Shown here piece by piece: positions 55,925-64,000 of a stretch of DNA of 64,000 nt. The position numbers and the translations under genes are program-made. Each line of letters starts with the position of its first letter. The first letter of the stretch is position 1. The notes beneath the pieces were generated by a model. It saw only the letters and a program-made list of their open reading frames with translations. It was not told the DNA's origin and did not search any database. Origin of the DNA: Candidatus Cloacimonadota bacterium (GTDB lineage Bacteria > Cloacimonadota > Cloacimonadia > JGIOTU-2); the NCBI GenBank assembly GCA_016932035.1, contig JAFGDR010000031.1, forward strand, positions 1 through 64,000. Reading direction: 5' to 3'.

Positions 55925-57499
55925 TTAAGACCTTAGAACTTCAATTACTTTTTCAACTAATGAGTCTGGGGTGAATGGTTTTTGTATGAAATTTGTTCCG
56001 GGCTCAAGAACACCTCGATTACGGATTTCTTCCCCCGTATAGCCGGACATGAATAGAATTTTCAAATCAGGCTTTTTTTCATGCATCTTTGCTGCTAATT
56101 CCCTTCCATTCATCTCTGGCATAATTACGTCTGTAAGCATCAGGTCAATAGAACCATCGAAATTCTTGGCTACTTCAAGCGCATTGATGCCATTGTCGGC
56201 AGTAATAATTTTAAAACCTTCATCCTCAAGAATTTCTGTAACGAGATCTTGCACCATTTCTTGATCTTCTACCAGTAAAATAGTATGCTGTTTTTGTTCA
56301 ATAGAATATTCTGGCTCGATTTTTGTCGTTGTTTCAGAAACGGGAGCTTCGATTTCTTCTTGCTCAACCAGCGGAAGATAAATCCTAAATGTTGTACCTT
56401 CTCCAAGCGAGCTGTCGACTTCAACACCACCATCACTTTGTTTAACAATACCATATACTGTTGCAAGTCCAAGACCTGTTCCTTTGCCGACTTTTTTTGT
56501 TGTAAAGAAAGGTTCGAATATTCGAACGATCGTCTCCTTGCTCATCCCGGTGCCGGTATCGGAGACCTCTATAACGACATATTCTCCGGGATTAAGAGCT
56601 TCGGTTTGAGTTGATTCAAGTTTTGTTGTTAAAGTTTTTGAAAAAGCCTTTATCGTGAGTTTTCCACCATTCTGCATTGCATCTCTTGCGTTTACAGCAA
56701 GATTCATAAGAATTTGATCTATTTGATTGCTGTCAGCTTTTATATAGAGATTTTCTTGAAGATCGGTTTGAAATATGATATCCTCACCAATCAAACGTTG
56801 AAGCATGTCGTGAACATCATTGATAACAGTTGATACATTCAACACTTTGGGCTCAATGATTTGCTGTCTGCTGAATGTAAGAAGCTGGCTTGTAAGTGAA
56901 GCAGCTCTTCCACCAGCTTTTCGTATTTCCTTAAGGTCATTATATATTGGATCGGATTCATTCAGCTTACGCATAAGCAGGTCACAGCGACCATTGATAG
57001 CAGTGAGAAGATTGTTAAAGTCATGAGCAACTCCACCAGCAAGCACACCGATTGTTTCCATCTTTTGTTTTTGGCGAAGCTTTTCCTCACTTTCTTTTAA
57101 TTCTTGTTGAAGTTGTTTTGACTCAGTTATATCCTCACATAACGTAACAACCGCTATAGGGAAATCTTCAGCATTACGAACTACATCTGAGATAAGACGA
57201 ACTGGAAAAGGTTCACCATCTTTCTTAATGTTCGTGCTTTCTCTGGTCATTCCTCGCCATTCTATGACCTGGTCGATCTTCCAGGGCTGCAATTTCTTTC
57301 TTGTAGCATAGATACGAACATCTTTTCCAATCAATTCATCAGGATCCCAGCCATGCATATGTGCATCTGCAGGATTTGTATAGATGATCTCGCCTTTTAT
57401 ATTTGTGATTGTAACCCCGAGCTTCATTGTTTCAATTGCTTTTTTCAGTTGAAGATATTCTTCTTCTTTTGTAATGTCTGTTTTATCAATTTGAATCAT
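55925..57499 (-). CDS. hybrid sensor histidine kinase (PAS-HisKA-HATPase-REC)
   Basis: A 524-residue cytoplasmic hybrid kinase. PAS domain about 20-130 (GVTITNIKGEIIYTN), HisKA with phosphorylatable His159 in GGVAHDFNNLL, HATPase with QILMNLAVNARDAM, DTGTGM and GKGTGLGLATVYGIV, and a C-terminal REC domain (about 407-522) with acceptor Asp457 in LMLTDVIMPEMNG and Lys in FIQKPF. No membrane helix, so it senses an internal signal. The HDFNN type of His box is typical of HPK4. No partner phosphotransfer protein or separate regulator lies nearby. Confidence 0.92.
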   Translation of the reverse strand: MIQIDKTDITKEEEYLQLKKAIETMKLGVTITNIKGEIIYTNPADAHMHGWDPDELIGKDVRIYATRKKLQPWKIDQVIEWRGMTRESTNIKKDGEPFPVRLISDVVRNAEDFPIAVVTLCEDITESKQLQQELKESEEKLRQKQKMETIGVLAGGVAHDFNNLLTAINGRCDLLMRKLNESDPIYNDLKEIRKAGGRAASLTSQLLTFSRQQIIEPKVLNVSTVINDVHDMLQRLIGEDIIFQTDLQENLYIKADSNQIDQILMNLAVNARDAMQNGGKLTIKAFSKTLTTKLESTQTEALNPGEYVVIEVSDTGTGMSKETIVRIFEPFFTTKKVGKGTGLGLATVYGIVKQSDGGVEVDSSLGEGTTFRIYLPLVEQEEIEAPVSETTTKIEPEYSIEQKQHTILLVEDQEMVQDLVTEILEDEGFKIITADNGINALEVAKNFDGSIDLMLTDVIMPEMNGRELAAKMHEKKPDLKILFMSGYTGEEIRNRGVLEPGTNFIQKPFTPDSLVEKVIEVLRS

Positions 57500-57531: not shown

Positions 57532-58254
57532 CTATTCTTTGATAAGAACAATTTTACCGTATGATGTATAATTTTTATTTAAATAAATGTAAAGGTAAAC
57601 TCCCGAAGGTATTTGAAAACCATTTACATCTAAGCAAGACCATGTAATAGCGCCTTTTTTATCAATATCATCTGGATAAAAAAATCTAATAAAGCGTCCC
57701 TTGATATCTAAAATAGTAAGAACAAAATCATTTATATGCTCAACTGGGACTGAGAAATGAACATTTTCTGTGAACGGATTTGGATATGTGCAAATATCGA
57801 AATCATTAAAACCATTGTGAGAAACACTGATTGGATAAGTGTGAAGTTGATAGGGATTTGTAGGTTCTCCTATTGTTATATTATCCTGGAATAAAAGACT
57901 TTCAGTACAGTCATATACCGAATCAGTGGGATCATTATAAATCTTAAAATAAATACAATCACAATTATCATTGCCAACAATGGTAAAATACCAGTATCCA
58001 TCCCAGTAGGGAGGTGAAGCTACCTGCCATGCCGCAATAGAGCGACAGTCAGATTCACCACCAGGACCAAATGCTCCAGCCATATTGTTGCTTACACCAC
58101 CTTCAAATATGTCACCATTAAATGTGATTTGAGCAATCAGGATCATTGAATACTGAGTTCCGGAGATGACATGCCAGTTTGGTGGATTCGATAGCAAGAT
58201 TGTATTAAATAAGAGCAATATTATAAAAACAAAAATAATAATTCTTTTTAACAT
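57532..58254 (-). CDS. secreted protein with GPGGESDCRSIA domain and sorting tail
   Basis: A 240-residue secreted protein. Signal peptide to about residue 22 (LLSNPP). Residues 26-137 are a domain shared with the two neighbouring proteins: NWHVISGTQYSM, GAFGPGGESDCRSIAAW, YWYFTIVGN, IYFKIYNDPTDSVYDC and LLFQDNITIG. Residues 152-240 are a sorting tail (CTYPNPFTEN, LTILDIKGRF, IPSGVYLYIYLN). Cys pairs (DCR and YDC) are positioned to form a disulfide. Domain not recognised; carbohydrate binding or a structural role is possible. Confidence 0.68.
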   Translation of the reverse strand: MLKRIIIFVFIILLLFNTILLSNPPNWHVISGTQYSMILIAQITFNGDIFEGGVSNNMAGAFGPGGESDCRSIAAWQVASPPYWDGYWYFTIVGNDNCDCIYFKIYNDPTDSVYDCTESLLFQDNITIGEPTNPYQLHTYPISVSHNGFNDFDICTYPNPFTENVHFSVPVEHINDFVLTILDIKGRFIRFFYPDDIDKKGAITWSCLDVNGFQIPSGVYLYIYLNKNYTSYGKIVLIKE

Positions 58255-58298
58255 TAATCTCCTTTGATGCCAAGTAATGTGAATTAGGACAATTATTT

Positions 58299-58955
58299 CT
58301 ATTCACATCGTAATGGATCATTAGATGAAGTAATAACGTAAAATTTTTTACTTAGTAATTTTGAAAAATCTGACCAAGAATTACTATCAACTTGAGCTAT
58401 ATGTGTTCCAGGAGTAGTTACTATATTTAGGGAGTTACCTGAATAGATATAATAAGATGAAACTCCATTGATTGGTGTCCATGAGATTGTTGGAATACCT
58501 GTTATTTCGTTTACGGTTATTAAAATGGAACTAGGTGTAGAAAGATTAGTTAAAAATATAATAGGATCTGCAGCTGTACCAATAGTAATACCATCCTGGA
58601 AAATAATATTTTCGAGACAGTTAAAGACACTGTCAGTATTAGAATCATATATTTTAAATGTTATAGTCTCATAATTTATGTTTCCAATAATATTAAAATA
58701 CCAGTATCCATAGGCAGGGAAAGATTCTAACCATAAGGCAATCGAACGACAGTCAGATTCACCACCAGGTCCAAATGCTGCAGCTATATTGCAGGTATCT
58801 GAGCCAGTAAAAGGATTATGATCTAAAAAGATATCAGCAAAAACAACCATTGAATATTCGTTGCCAGAAATAGGTGCCCACTCAGGCGGCTCAGATATGA
58901 GAATAGATTTGTATGACAATAGAAAAGCGAGAAGAAGTAAGATAATTCTTTTCAT
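58299..58955 (-). CDS. secreted protein with GPGGESDCRSIA domain, no sorting tail
   Basis: A 218-residue protein with signal peptide MKRIILLLLAFLLSYK. Residues 25-133 repeat the domain of the neighbour (EWAPISGNEYSM, AAFGPGGESDCRSIALW, YWYFNIIGN, ITFKIYDSNTDSVFNC, IIFQDGITIG). The C-terminal 80 residues look like a fibronectin type III fold (ISWTPINGVSSYYIYSG) and end RCE without any PNP tail. ATG 58955 is chosen; a longer frame to 59000 has no better support. No ribosome binding site is clear. Lies 6 nt beyond the large protein's stop. Confidence 0.65.
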   Translation of the reverse strand: MKRIILLLLAFLLSYKSILISEPPEWAPISGNEYSMVVFADIFLDHNPFTGSDTCNIAAAFGPGGESDCRSIALWLESFPAYGYWYFNIIGNINYETITFKIYDSNTDSVFNCLENIIFQDGITIGTAADPIIFLTNLSTPSSILITVNEITGIPTISWTPINGVSSYYIYSGNSLNIVTTPGTHIAQVDSNSWSDFSKLLSKKFYVITSSNDPLRCE

Positions 58956-59006
58956 TATTACAAGAAAAAAGAGGAAGAAAGCATGAACTTTCTTCCTCAC
59001 AATATG

Positions 59007-62000
59007 TTATTTGATCATTAACATTTTTCTTACGACGGAGGAGGAATTCGATGTTAATTTGTAGAAGTAAATACCGTTAGAACATCGATGTCCATTATCA
59101 TCACAACCATCCCAACTTGTAACATATTCTCCGGCATCCTTCGAGCCTGAAATCAATGTTTTTACCTTTTGACCGAGTATATTATAAATCGAAAGTTCGA
59201 CAGACGTTGTTTGTGGAATGTAGTATTGGATACGAGTTGATTGATAGAAGGGATTTGGATGATTTCTATATAACATTAATGAGCTGTTTTCATGTTCGAT
59301 TTTATCCAGGGTTATTTTGATAGGATTAGAGAATTTTCCAAGAATAATGTCATTCTGGAAATCTATGGTTTGATTGCTTATCAGGAACTCATCTGATTGA
59401 CCATTAAAAGCCTGTAAGTGCAAAGATTCTGATTTTTTTCCAACAACAGTAAAGTACCAAACATTTTCAAGATATGTCCCTATGGAGTGACATGCACCAT
59501 TCTCATCAAAGATACCAACTGATAGAGAAGATGGATCATAATCATTTTCTAAGTCTATTAGAGCTATCATGTTTTTGTCACAACCAGAAAGAACCTGCCA
59601 GTTCAAGGCATTATTAGATGAAGGTGATGATAAAACTTCTTTTGTTTGCTCAGCAATAGGATAGGTGAGTGTGTCAGCATTATCCATATTGATCTTATAA
59701 GTTGCGCCGGGAACCATTGTTACCAGGTCACCTGCCCAGGAACCGTTAACGTTTATTGCTGATTTAGACTGAGTTTTAACCGCCAACGCACTTGTTCCAA
59801 GACTTGTAAGGGCATCATCTAGAGTTAACTCAACGTTAGGATAGTATCCAACCCAATTCCAGTTGTATGCTAGAGCAGAATCATATTCTAAAGGAAGATA
59901 ATTTGTTTCTGGATTAATGAGATGACCGGTAACGGTGAAGGGATCAACAGGATTGAGCATATTAAGAAGATAACCATCGCCATCTGTGATGTTTAAGAGT
60001 GTGCCAACCCATATCCCTGGCGGATCCGTATATGTTGCAGATTGTGTTTGGTTCTTAATCTGGAATCCATTGCCACCTAGAGGAGAAAGTACAGCATCAA
60101 GAGATGTGTCATCAGGATGGACATTGAATGAAATCCAATTCCACTCTGCTGTAAGAGAGAAATTCTGATCTACATCTTTTTGGGCTACAACATTGAGTTG
60201 AGAATGTGTGCAATCCATGAAAATTAAAGTTTCATAACAATCATAGATAACATCCGTTTCGGTATCATATACTTTAAAACTTATAGTGTCTGTACCGGAA
60301 TTATTATTACTTACCATTGTCAAGTACCAGTAACCCTCAAGATCGTAAAAACCTTCCCAGAGAGGATGGTTGCCTTCTTGCCATGTGGCAATTCCACGAC
60401 AGTCAGGAGTACCGCCAGAACCAAAAGCACCAAACTGATTACTGGCATCATTAATCAAATAGTCACCGTCTAATGAAGTAGTTACATAAGCAACCATTGT
60501 ATATTGTGTCCCGGGTATTACCTCCCAATTTAAAAGCGTAATGTCCACAGTTGTTGTATCATTTGCAATAACTTCTACATCACTGATCGAAACAGTTGTA
60601 TAATCATCAAGTGAAGCCGTAACATCATATGTTCCGTTTTCGAGAAGTATTTCGTAGTAACCTGTTGCATCAGGATTTACAGTAAGCGTATCAGAAGAAA
60701 CCTCTACATTTGTAACAAGCCCAGCACCATCCTTAAGCGTTATGGTGCCTGTAATCCAGCCATCATATTTAATAAGAAGAAGAAAGAAATCATTACCTGT
60801 GTTTTGATGCCCGGAAACAACGACAACATCTGTAATTGTGGAATCTTGATAACCTGCTTTTGTGGCAAGTACATCATATGTGCCTTGTGGTAATTCAATA
60901 AAATATTCATAATATAAAATTGAGCCAGAGTAAGGATCATAAACTGGATAAGGATGCGTGCTTTGATCTCCAGCTGAAACAAGAACCTCAGTTACATCTC
61001 CGAGACCTTCAAGATCAACACGCCCAAGGATTTCACCGGGAAGTATTTCATTTAATGTGATATCGATACCTGTCGTAACCTGACCGAGTAATACATTAAC
61101 TCCAGTTACGGGATTTGTAGAATAACCGTCTAATATAGCAGTAACTGTATAAGTTCCAGGAGCAAGATTGATAAGATATTCTCCAGAAGCATCAGGATAT
61201 ACAGTCTCGCCACCTGCAGTAACTGCTACATTCTGTAGATTTCCTGTTCCGCCCTGCAGTGTGATAGTTCCACCAATACCGGATTGAAGGAACGGGAGTG
61301 CTCCCATATCTGCTCTTGTTTCATCAGGATCAGGTGGGGAAGCAGGATCACCTGTATTAATACATGGAGATTTTGTTGAATCATGAACAGGAAAGTTAGC
61401 CCAGGTTATTTGAAAATCGTTGTTCATAGCATCCTGGAAAAGAGGATTTACGGCAATACAACCGGTTCCAAAATATGATTGACCAGTTCCATTCATAATG
61501 TCCGAATACGTAGCATCAATACTGCTTCCAGCTTCTACATATATGCCATTATTTGCATTGTTCCATAAAATACAATTAACAAGAGTAGCATCAGAATTAT
61601 ACAGCACAGCAAGAGCCGATCCGTTTTGATAAGCGAGATTATTGCTTATTGTTGTATTTTGTATTTCAGGGAGGGAGTTATTATAGCAGGATATGCCAGC
61701 CCCATTCCACTGGGTTGTGTTTCCGTATATTTGTGACCATTTTATTGAAGGACTTGAATTAAAGCAGTTTATACCAGCACCGTCATAGGTAGAAGTATTA
61801 TCAAAAATCAACACTTCTGTAAGAACTGGATCAGAATTATAAAGATATAACCCACCTCCCGCACCGCTTGCTATGTTATCAGAAATGATAACATCGTCTA
61901 TCACAATATCCGATTCGTACAGGTAGAGTGCCCCGCCGTTACTTATGGCTGTATTTTGAGTGATCGTTGAATGTTGGATGAGTATATCTGATGAATTATA

Positions 62001-62417
62001 ACAGTATAGTGCACCACCACGATAATCAGGAGAAATACCTGTTGCTTTTCCGTTTTCTATATCACAATACACGATCTTTGAGCTGTCCTGCCCGTTTGTG
62101 TTTGTGTCTATGAATCTCAAGCCATGCCATCCTGTAGCAGGTGTTTGTGCAGAAAAAGTGATCGTATTTCCAAGAATACCTTCTGCTAATAATCGTCCAT
62201 AGATGATAAACTTATAATGTCCTGAAAATTCTACTGAAACACCAGGATCGATCGTAAGCTCATTGCCTAAAGGTATTTGAATTTCACCATCAACAATATA
62301 GGGACTACCTGCAAGACTCCAAGTTCCACTTACATTACCAGCAGGAATATGAGTTTGAGCTACAACAGAAATAGAAAAAAGAAGTAAGAAACAAAGCAAA
62401 AGACCAATTTTTTTCAT
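59007..62417 (-). CDS. large secreted protein: beta-helix, carboxypeptidase-regulatory-like repeats, novel domains, sorting tail
   Basis: A 1136-residue protein; GGAGG sits 5 nt before ATG 62417. Signal peptide ends near VVAQ. Residues about 45-310 are a right-handed beta helix with repeats near GGALYCYNSSD and GGGLYLYNSDP, about 30 residues each. Residues 385-630 hold three CarboxypepD_reg/PEGA-like repeats (GGTITLQGGTG, GTYTVTAILDGYS). Copy 1 of the shared domain is 630-740; two WNW-type repeats at 758-920; a diverged second copy at 939-1035; then a tail 1049-1136 (HPNPFYQSTRIQYYIP, NGIYFYKLTS). Presumed cell-surface or secreted. Confidence 0.75.
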   Translation of the reverse strand: MKKIGLLLCFLLLFSISVVAQTHIPAGNVSGTWSLAGSPYIVDGEIQIPLGNELTIDPGVSVEFSGHYKFIIYGRLLAEGILGNTITFSAQTPATGWHGLRFIDTNTNGQDSSKIVYCDIENGKATGISPDYRGGALYCYNSSDILIQHSTITQNTAISNGGALYLYESDIVIDDVIISDNIASGAGGGLYLYNSDPVLTEVLIFDNTSTYDGAGINCFNSSPSIKWSQIYGNTTQWNGAGISCYNNSLPEIQNTTISNNLAYQNGSALAVLYNSDATLVNCILWNNANNGIYVEAGSSIDATYSDIMNGTGQSYFGTGCIAVNPLFQDAMNNDFQITWANFPVHDSTKSPCINTGDPASPPDPDETRADMGALPFLQSGIGGTITLQGGTGNLQNVAVTAGGETVYPDASGEYLINLAPGTYTVTAILDGYSTNPVTGVNVLLGQVTTGIDITLNEILPGEILGRVDLEGLGDVTEVLVSAGDQSTHPYPVYDPYSGSILYYEYFIELPQGTYDVLATKAGYQDSTITDVVVVSGHQNTGNDFFLLLIKYDGWITGTITLKDGAGLVTNVEVSSDTLTVNPDATGYYEILLENGTYDVTASLDDYTTVSISDVEVIANDTTTVDITLLNWEVIPGTQYTMVAYVTTSLDGDYLINDASNQFGAFGSGGTPDCRGIATWQEGNHPLWEGFYDLEGYWYLTMVSNNNSGTDTISFKVYDTETDVIYDCYETLIFMDCTHSQLNVVAQKDVDQNFSLTAEWNWISFNVHPDDTSLDAVLSPLGGNGFQIKNQTQSATYTDPPGIWVGTLLNITDGDGYLLNMLNPVDPFTVTGHLINPETNYLPLEYDSALAYNWNWVGYYPNVELTLDDALTSLGTSALAVKTQSKSAINVNGSWAGDLVTMVPGATYKINMDNADTLTYPIAEQTKEVLSSPSSNNALNWQVLSGCDKNMIALIDLENDYDPSSLSVGIFDENGACHSIGTYLENVWYFTVVGKKSESLHLQAFNGQSDEFLISNQTIDFQNDIILGKFSNPIKITLDKIEHENSSLMLYRNHPNPFYQSTRIQYYIPQTTSVELSIYNILGQKVKTLISGSKDAGEYVTSWDGCDDNGHRCSNGIYFYKLTSNSSSVVRKMLMIK

Positions 62418-62733
62418 TGTATCCTCCATAATAGTTTTTTTCTTTTCATTGATAACCTTCTTTTTTAGGTTTTAATAAAAATTTTTATAAATTTATATAG
62501 CAATTTTTGTGCTGATAATTAGAATATAAATGAATTATCTGAATAAAAATATTTGCAGAATTGCGTAACGTAACTGTGAGATGTGACTTAAAAGATTGAA
62601 TGCAATATTAATTCAATGCATTAGACAAAAATATTCATTTGAGAAATTTTGACAAAATGCTGAATTTATTCCGCAGTTTGTGTAGTTTATTCTACACTTT
62701 GAAGAAATTTTATCCACCTCTCATTTTAGCTCC
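62418..62733. other. AT-rich intergenic region, no gene seen
   Basis: 316 bases, heavily AT. It contains ATTGAAT/ATTCAAT as an inverted repeat (62595-62617) and GTGTAG/CTACAC (62680-62697) as a hairpin. A TTGACA is on the plus strand at 62649-62654 but no plus-strand gene follows. It presumably holds the minus-strand promoter of the large protein gene, which I cannot place, and the end of the LVIVD-repeat gene. Confidence 0.5.
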
Positions 62734-64000
62734 TTATGGGCTAACCTGTACAATCTTCACTCCCTCGCTATCAATGAGTAAGGTATAACTTCCAGAGTAA
62801 GTGAGTGAAGACGCTTCGGTTGTCATGTAATAATATCCAAGTATATATGGCGTCGTAATTGATGAAACATCGATAGCCATCAATCCAATTTCTGAATCTG
62901 AAATATAAGCATAGCCATCATAAGTATAAACTCCCGTAACGAATCCGCCAGTATTGACTTCAGAAACATAAGTGGGAGTTGCCGGTGTTAAAACATCAAT
63001 AATAATAAGACCACTTTCACCATCAGCTATATAGGCATAGTTATTTTGAACAAAAACATCTTTGGCTATGGTTGTCGGATAGGTAGAGAGAAGAGATGGG
63101 TTATAGGGATCAGAGATATCAAAAATAGCTATTCCATCCAAGCCTTGAGCAACATAGGCATATGTTCCATTAACAAAAATACCTTGAGCAGAGCCACCAG
63201 TAGGAACATTTGTCACGAAATCAGGGGTGGAATTTGAAATGAAGAAAACGGTCAATCCATTATTGCCGTCAGCAATATATCCAAAATCTCCAACAACTGA
63301 AATATCATATGGAATTCCCGATGTCTGACTGCTTCCTGTAACGATAGGATTTGTTGGAGTGCTAATATCGACTCGGGATATCAAGCCTGGAGCAGTTGTT
63401 CCGCTGTGACTTGTTACATATAAAAAATCATTTTCGATATCAGCGGAGATAACCCGATCCTCGAAATCTGTCATTGTGTGTTCGACATAAGGACTTTCAG
63501 GATTCCCATAATATATGATCTGAAGACCAGAATAGTTATCCGGTACATAGGCATACCAGGCAAGCGTAGCAATGTCTTGAGCAACACCTGGAGTATTTAA
63601 ATCACCAACAAGATTCAAAAGAATATTCATTGACTCTTCATTACTGTTCGACGACGTAAATGTCCCTGAATAGGCTTTAACACGATATGAGAATGTGCCG
63701 CATGGTTCTGTTATATTATCGATAAAAAATGTTGTATTACTATCAACAGTACTATAGTTAAGAGTCCAGTCTTTACCGCCGATCTTTTTATCGATATGGA
63801 AACCAACTTCACCCTCACTATTATCCTGCCAGGTAAGCTTTATCTTGTTATCATCGAGTTTTTGAAGTACAAGATTGGAAGGTGCAAGAAATGTTGGTGT
63901 ATAAGAATTTTCTGTGTAATCTGATGTTGATGTGCCAATAAATGCCTTTGCACGATAATAGACTTCTTCAAAAAGAATTACATCGTCAGTAAAAGAAGTA
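62734..64000 (-). CDS. LVIVD-repeat / fibronectin III protein (5' truncated by window)
   Basis: The frame is open to base 63999, so the gene continues beyond the window; 422 codons are here. The part beyond the internal ATG at 63630 includes a fibronectin type III domain (APSNLVLQKLDDNKIKLTW, GTFSYRVKAYSG). Residues after this form about six LVIVD repeats of roughly 42 residues: YAYIADGESGLIIIDV, YAYVAQGLDGIAIFDI, FGYIADGNNGLTVFFI and so on, a beta-propeller-like surface module. No sorting tail at the C-terminus, which ends VKIVQVSP. Function unknown; likely surface or secreted, adhesion-like. Confidence 0.8.
   Translation of the reverse strand, partial: TSFTDDVILFEEVYYRAKAFIGTSTSDYTENSYTPTFLAPSNLVLQKLDDNKIKLTWQDNSEGEVGFHIDKKIGGKDWTLNYSTVDSNTTFFIDNITEPCGTFSYRVKAYSGTFTSSNSNEESMNILLNLVGDLNTPGVAQDIATLAWYAYVPDNYSGLQIIYYGNPESPYVEHTMTDFEDRVISADIENDFLYVTSHSGTTAPGLISRVDISTPTNPIVTGSSQTSGIPYDISVVGDFGYIADGNNGLTVFFISNSTPDFVTNVPTGGSAQGIFVNGTYAYVAQGLDGIAIFDISDPYNPSLLSTYPTTIAKDVFVQNNYAYIADGESGLIIIDVLTPATPTYVSEVNTGGFVTGVYTYDGYAYISDSEIGLMAIDVSSITTPYILGYYYMTTEASSLTYSGSYTLLIDSEGVKIVQVSP

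Follow-up and report, generated by a model that had tools for sequence, protein, structure and literature searches.

What is the unnamed domain that occurs four times in three adjoining genes of a Cloacimonadota genome, and what might the proteins that carry it do? All four copies of this domain, here called D, lie on the minus strand of the window, by which we mean the whole stretch of DNA analysed (64,000 nucleotides). Their positions are as follows.

57838..58179, minus strand: D copy 1, residues 26-139 of P0001 (AlphaFold2 model with pLDDT 96.9)
58548..58883, minus strand: D copy 2, residues 40-151 of the P0002 open reading frame as listed
60180..60530, minus strand: D copy 3, residues 634-750 of P0003, the first D of gene A
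59310..59603, minus strand: D copy 4 (D'), residues 943-1040 of P0003, the second D of gene A

The repeat, its predicted fold and its spread

Copies 2, 3 and 4 are 53%, 45% and 31% identical to copy 1, respectively. Searched against all open reading frames of the window, leave-one-out profiles recovered copies 1, 2 and 3 at 121, 106 and 79 bits, and the omitted copy 4 at 20.6 bits (E = 7e-6) inside its long reading frame and at 29.9 bits by itself, where 2000 shuffles used as a control reached a maximum of 10.3 bits. Since each copy is found by a profile of the other three, with copy 4 far above the shuffles, the repeat is real and the four D copies are homologues, as the preliminary description of this DNA had proposed from four copies in three neighbouring genes. 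That description had also reported the first cysteine signature as missing from copy 4; in fact the first conserved cysteine (A-C-H-S) is retained in copy 4, and what it lacks is the second cysteine together with the GPGG loop. Copy 4 is a diverged yet conserved positional subfamily.

No Pfam or NCBIfam model fits the four copies or 60 of their relatives, and no Pfam model fits a wider set of 40: scans of the 60 and the 40 against Pfam, and of the 60 against NCBIfam, gave isolated chance matches and nothing significant. PDB sequences searched with profiles of D and of a second module, WW (described below), gave no match. These results agree with the earlier view that D belongs to no named family, and a significant Pfam match shared by all copies, which was to count against that view, was looked for and not found. 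With the 60 relatives as input, AlphaFold2 predicts D as a confident beta-sandwich (pLDDT 96.9, pTM 0.88). In a model of P0003 residues 634-1045 (pLDDT 93.5) the order of strands is equal in copies 3 and 4, so that the D fold is predicted for copy 4 too; the other counter-case named at the outset was that structure prediction would show the copies to be unrelated. Foldseek matches with E < 0.001 obtained with this long model have TM scores of 0.14-0.15 and were set aside as not meaningful. The sole same-fold match of D in the two structure libraries searched is BFVD entry A0A0F7L4H0, a 136-aa protein titled 'uncultured marine virus' with a predicted D fold (TM 0.68, 13% identity), and no viral relatives of D were found by tblastn in phages or in viral contigs.

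Both cysteines are present in 43 of 60 close D relatives, and in the wider D superfamily the first is found in 23/30 members and the second in 0/30. A disulfide is therefore at most a feature of a subset, and we reject it as the family feature that two conserved cysteines had seemed to suggest.

Of 125 Cloacimonadota genomes, 57 have relatives according to the four-copy profile and 83 according to a wider D profile, in keeping with the anticipated family across the phylum. A 60-copy profile finds D in 46/199 Neomarinimicrobiota genomes, mostly in a diverged form with a core of approximately AAF-x-G-(D/E)-E-C-R-G-V-A...YFLT-(I/V)-Y-x-N-x-x-G-E-x-I-x-F. These two phyla are the ones covered by the deep D searches, and one genome-wide pattern scan reaches close relatives only. 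Three loci titled Armatimonadota or Armatimonadetes (L039, L044 and L068) carry the same gene block; they coincide with contigs among the Cloacimonadota genomes (for example, L044 = G071), and their titles are therefore probably misassigned.

In a tree of 84 D copies, first-D-of-A and second-D-of-A form two groups of 21 rows, each with 100% support, and copies 3 and 4 group with the same-position copies of 20 other loci and not by genome. This clustering by position across species implies that the duplication inside gene A is ancient. Nearest to P0001 in the tree is domain 2 of a gene with two D domains in the relative L034, and nearest to P0002 is the domain-1 group of that gene; the support of 93-94 is not conclusive, and by this placement the two may be the halves of such a gene. 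The preliminary description had taken D for a lineage-specific module that had expanded locally. The four copies in three adjoining genes, the only ones the four-copy profile finds in the window's own genome, would favour such an expansion as a recent event, but the fully supported grouping by gene position contradicts it for copies 3 and 4, and with D present in two phyla this reading is very improbable.

Architecture and export of the D proteins

The genes that carry D, with their modules and neighbouring elements, are listed below.

59007..62429, minus strand: gene A (P0003, 1140 aa), with signal-peptide-like start, beta-helix, CarboxypepD repeats, D-WW-D' and type IX sorting tail
61647..62099, minus strand: beta-helix region of A, residues 111-261 (PF13229, E 5e-13)
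59658..60164, minus strand: WW, a tandem tryptophan-rich pair, P0003 residues 756-924, the second unnamed module, between copies 3 and 4
59019..59258, minus strand: type IX sorting domain of A, residues 1058-1137 (TIGR04183, 41.9 bits, cut-off 23)
58971..58998, minus strand: intrinsic-terminator hairpin directly after gene A (12-bp stem then T6, -18.5 kcal/mol)
58299..58955, minus strand: P0002 gene with corrected start, 218 aa, with signal-peptide-like start, D and fn3-like remainder, no sorting tail
57532..58254, minus strand: P0001 gene, 240 aa, with signal-peptide-like start, D domain and type IX sorting tail
57547..57786, minus strand: type IX sorting domain of P0001, residues 157-236 (TIGR04183, 23.7 bits, cut-off 23)
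55925..57499, minus strand: hybrid histidine kinase-like gene, directly downstream, its position kept only in close relatives

Like D, the WW pair matches nothing in Pfam, and the two modules recur jointly: in A they stand between the CarboxypepD repeats and the sorting tail, and gene B, which follows A and comprises one or more D proteins, is typically of the form D-D-WW-D-tail (~740 aa) or D-tail (~240 aa). The B genes of some relatives (L114:8993-11377 and L053:2633-4924) have, between D and the sorting tail, cohesin domains (PF00963, matched in L114) and repeats that look dockerin-like to the eye. Separately, open reading frames of ~2140 aa in L070 and L071 begin with a D domain; in L070 this D is followed by short repeats in a long array, with a WW pair after them.

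The proteins look exported, which supports the earlier suggestion of a surface module of a possibly type IX-like system. A type IX sorting domain is present in 40 of 43 A/B tails, the window's genome has 103 matches to the type IX sorting tail, and SprA, part of the type IX machinery, is found there at 570.6 bits (cut-off 200). All three proteins have signal-peptide-like N-terminal stretches, judged by eye, but copies 3 and 4, which had also been said to follow signal peptides, lie hundreds of residues inside P0003. A and P0001 resemble type A cargo of type IX secretion (TIGR04183 / PF18962 tails) in their signal-peptide-like start, their multi-domain, beta-rich body and a sorting domain above the NCBIfam cut-off, with SprA in the genome. 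They differ from such cargo in that none of the libraries searched contains the body domains D and WW, and in that the genes stand behind a type IV pilus cluster. P0002 departs further, having no sorting-tail match in Pfam or NCBIfam.

The terminator after A bears on both the annotation and the transcription of what follows. As the GTG start listed for P0002 (59000) falls within the hairpin, the likely start is the ATG at 58955. A hairpin with a stem of at least 9 pairs is found at 13/20 other A-B junctions (L034-L058), compared with 15/400 random windows, and with the terminator so conserved, B is probably transcribed apart from the pilus transcript.

A gene order behind a type IV pilus cluster

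Upstream of A lies a gene that we call LV.

62734..64000, minus strand: LV gene, a 628-aa open frame cut by the window end, lipoprotein-like, with fn3-like modules and an LVIVD beta-propeller, adjoining A upstream

Beyond the window end, and so out of sight of the preliminary description, the contig has a type IV pilus cluster at positions 64000-80119, on the same strand as A, in the order 151-aa pilin-like ORF, pilC, pilB, a number of minor-pilin-like ORFs whose N-terminus has a membrane segment, sensor-like ORF, response regulator, pilT, pilMN-TPR fusion, pilO-like gene, pilQ and the remainder of LV, after which come A and B. The secretin (pilQ) matches at E 5e-27, the PilB-type T2SSE at E 4e-99 and T2SSF at E 7e-25; PilT reaches 317 bits against an NCBIfam cut-off of 319 (2.4 bits under), PilM has an Amuc_1101 match and the GspM/PilO match is weak. 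PilB, PilC, PilT and PilQ are thus all within one cluster, and a prepilin peptidase (PF01478, 65.7 bits, cut-off 26.5) is present in the genome. The 151-aa ORF that comes first has an N-terminal hydrophobic segment and is conserved (52%), and no pilin family matches it. In L106:5115-7982, PilM-like, PilN-like and tol-pal/TPR parts are apparently fused in one 956-aa pilus-cluster protein. Putatively conductive pili have been reported from transcriptomes of Cloacimonadota (PMC7382037).

Pfam and NCBIfam scans of LV found LVIVD, fn3 and choice-of-anchor B and nothing else. A cysteine occupies the lipobox position in all LV orthologues listed, and the simple motif fits most of them. A beta-propeller protein in a pilus gene neighbourhood, beside a variable adhesin-like part, recalls PilY1 (PilC of Neisseria), a type IVa pilus adhesin that combines a beta-propeller with a variable N-terminal part (PMC13190605). 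Membership of LV in that family was considered and rejected, since the scans gave no PilY1 match and no PilY1-type C-terminal propeller domain; PilY1 is therefore the nearest analogue in the literature and not a family to which LV belongs. LV differs from it in having LVIVD repeats and fn3 modules and in looking lipoprotein-like, and here the adhesin-like part is encoded apart, by a gene whose product ends in a type IX tail.

How firmly are these genes held together? LV is directly upstream of A in 19/19 loci with enough sequence. All 29 Cloacimonadota genomes with A have this pilQ, and in 25 of the 29 it shares contig and strand with A and lies ~2 kb upstream, a distance equal to the length of LV. 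The other four are G113, G068, G114 and G070, and a contig-end break accounts for the first three: in G113 and G068 the pilQ-LV or LV-A sequence runs into a contig end with the break inside LV, and in G114 the contig begins inside LV. These linkage counts were read by eye, the 29 being counted by hand, in genomes that are mostly fragmented metagenome bins. Among Neomarinimicrobiota, G155 has pilMN-pilO-pilQ-LV-A-B on one contig, and G126 has pilin-pilC-pilB-RR-pilT-pilMN-pilO-pilQ-LV up to a contig end and LV-A on another contig, the breaks being inside LV and A. We found no paper describing the LV-A-B gene block.

pilQ is found in 95 Cloacimonadota genomes and A in 29, so that most pilQ clusters have no A; in ten genomes with pilQ and no A, pilQ is followed by other genes or a kinase, and one of them has an LV-like gene and then a different large protein. 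In another family of the phylum (L125:5199-9935), pilQ is followed by an LV-like gene and then by a different protein of at least 949 aa replacing A. Hence the pilus as such can do without A, and the block LV-A-B that stands behind the pilus genes is accessory.

What the D proteins may do

The conserved order at the end of the pilus cluster suggests, rather than proves, that the A and B surface proteins work with the pilus. Our tentative preference, for which the function is read from linkage, is that they are type IX-exported surface adhesin or scaffold proteins acting at the type IV pilus; the classification of D as an Ig-like beta-sandwich module of type IX-exported surface proteins is part of the same proposal and is held just as tentatively. 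Under this proposal A and B would leave the cell via the type IX system and remain on the surface, LV would sit in the outer membrane near the secretin, and the three would assemble where the pilus exits into a complex with an adhesive or scaffolding role, D and WW being its beta-rich binding or spacer heads. Pilus and surface adhesins would then act jointly in attachment to cells or substrate. The proposal draws computed support from the homology of the copies, their predicted fold, the sorting tails and a gene order that is kept in two phyla. Against joint action with the pilus stand the majority of pilQ clusters without A, the occurrence of D and WW unlinked to pili elsewhere, the terminator that parts B from the pilus transcript, the 304-base gap between LV and A in the window, and the position of LV outside the PilY1 family.

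Next in probability, and a serious possibility, is that D and WW serve type IX cargo as generic structural spacers and that A and B are ordinary surface proteins, whose position behind the pilus genes comes from shared regulation or vertical inheritance. Both modules are also found in many large cargo proteins of the type IX system that have no link to pili, as well as in G108 and G116, genomes without this pilQ, so D is not a pilus marker. Their recurrence in very large type IX-type proteins, in arrays ~310 residues apart, speaks for this reading, and the many pilus clusters without A and the terminator after A fit the same reading. It accounts less well for the order pilQ-LV-A, which is found in every testable genome across families (A being 42-55% identical) and in a second phylum; an order so widely kept is not required by shared regulation alone.

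We consider it improbable that D is a carbohydrate-binding module (starch-binding, CBM20-like) with which A and B bind surface polysaccharide for polymer breakdown, independently of pili. Starch-binding domains are among the best PDB fold matches of D, together with Ig-like sandwiches, and some B genes have cohesin domains. The likeness of fold is weak (E 0.15, query TM 0.43-0.49), Foldseek of D alone against the PDB giving no match with E < 0.001, no CBM profile fits D, and neither A nor B has a catalytic domain. What D has in common with starch-binding (CBM20/CBM41-like) and Ig-like domains is the general beta-sandwich shape, and it differs from them in having no significant fold or profile match to them.

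D and the WW pair have hundreds of occurrences in uncultured bacteria and are unnamed in the family libraries searched, so that with names for them many surface proteins now called 'hypothetical' would gain an annotation. With pilQ, propeller lipoprotein and type IX cargo in a fixed order in two phyla, type IV pili and type IX secretion are linked in a concrete and testable way in organisms that are difficult to cultivate. A more specific and doubtful extension is that the pilus of Cloacimonadota and Neomarinimicrobiota has type IX-delivered extracellular parts, LV at the secretin and the D-WW proteins making up a collar or adhesive head at the exit. If this were true, two export machines, the type IV pilus and the type IX system, would build one appendage.
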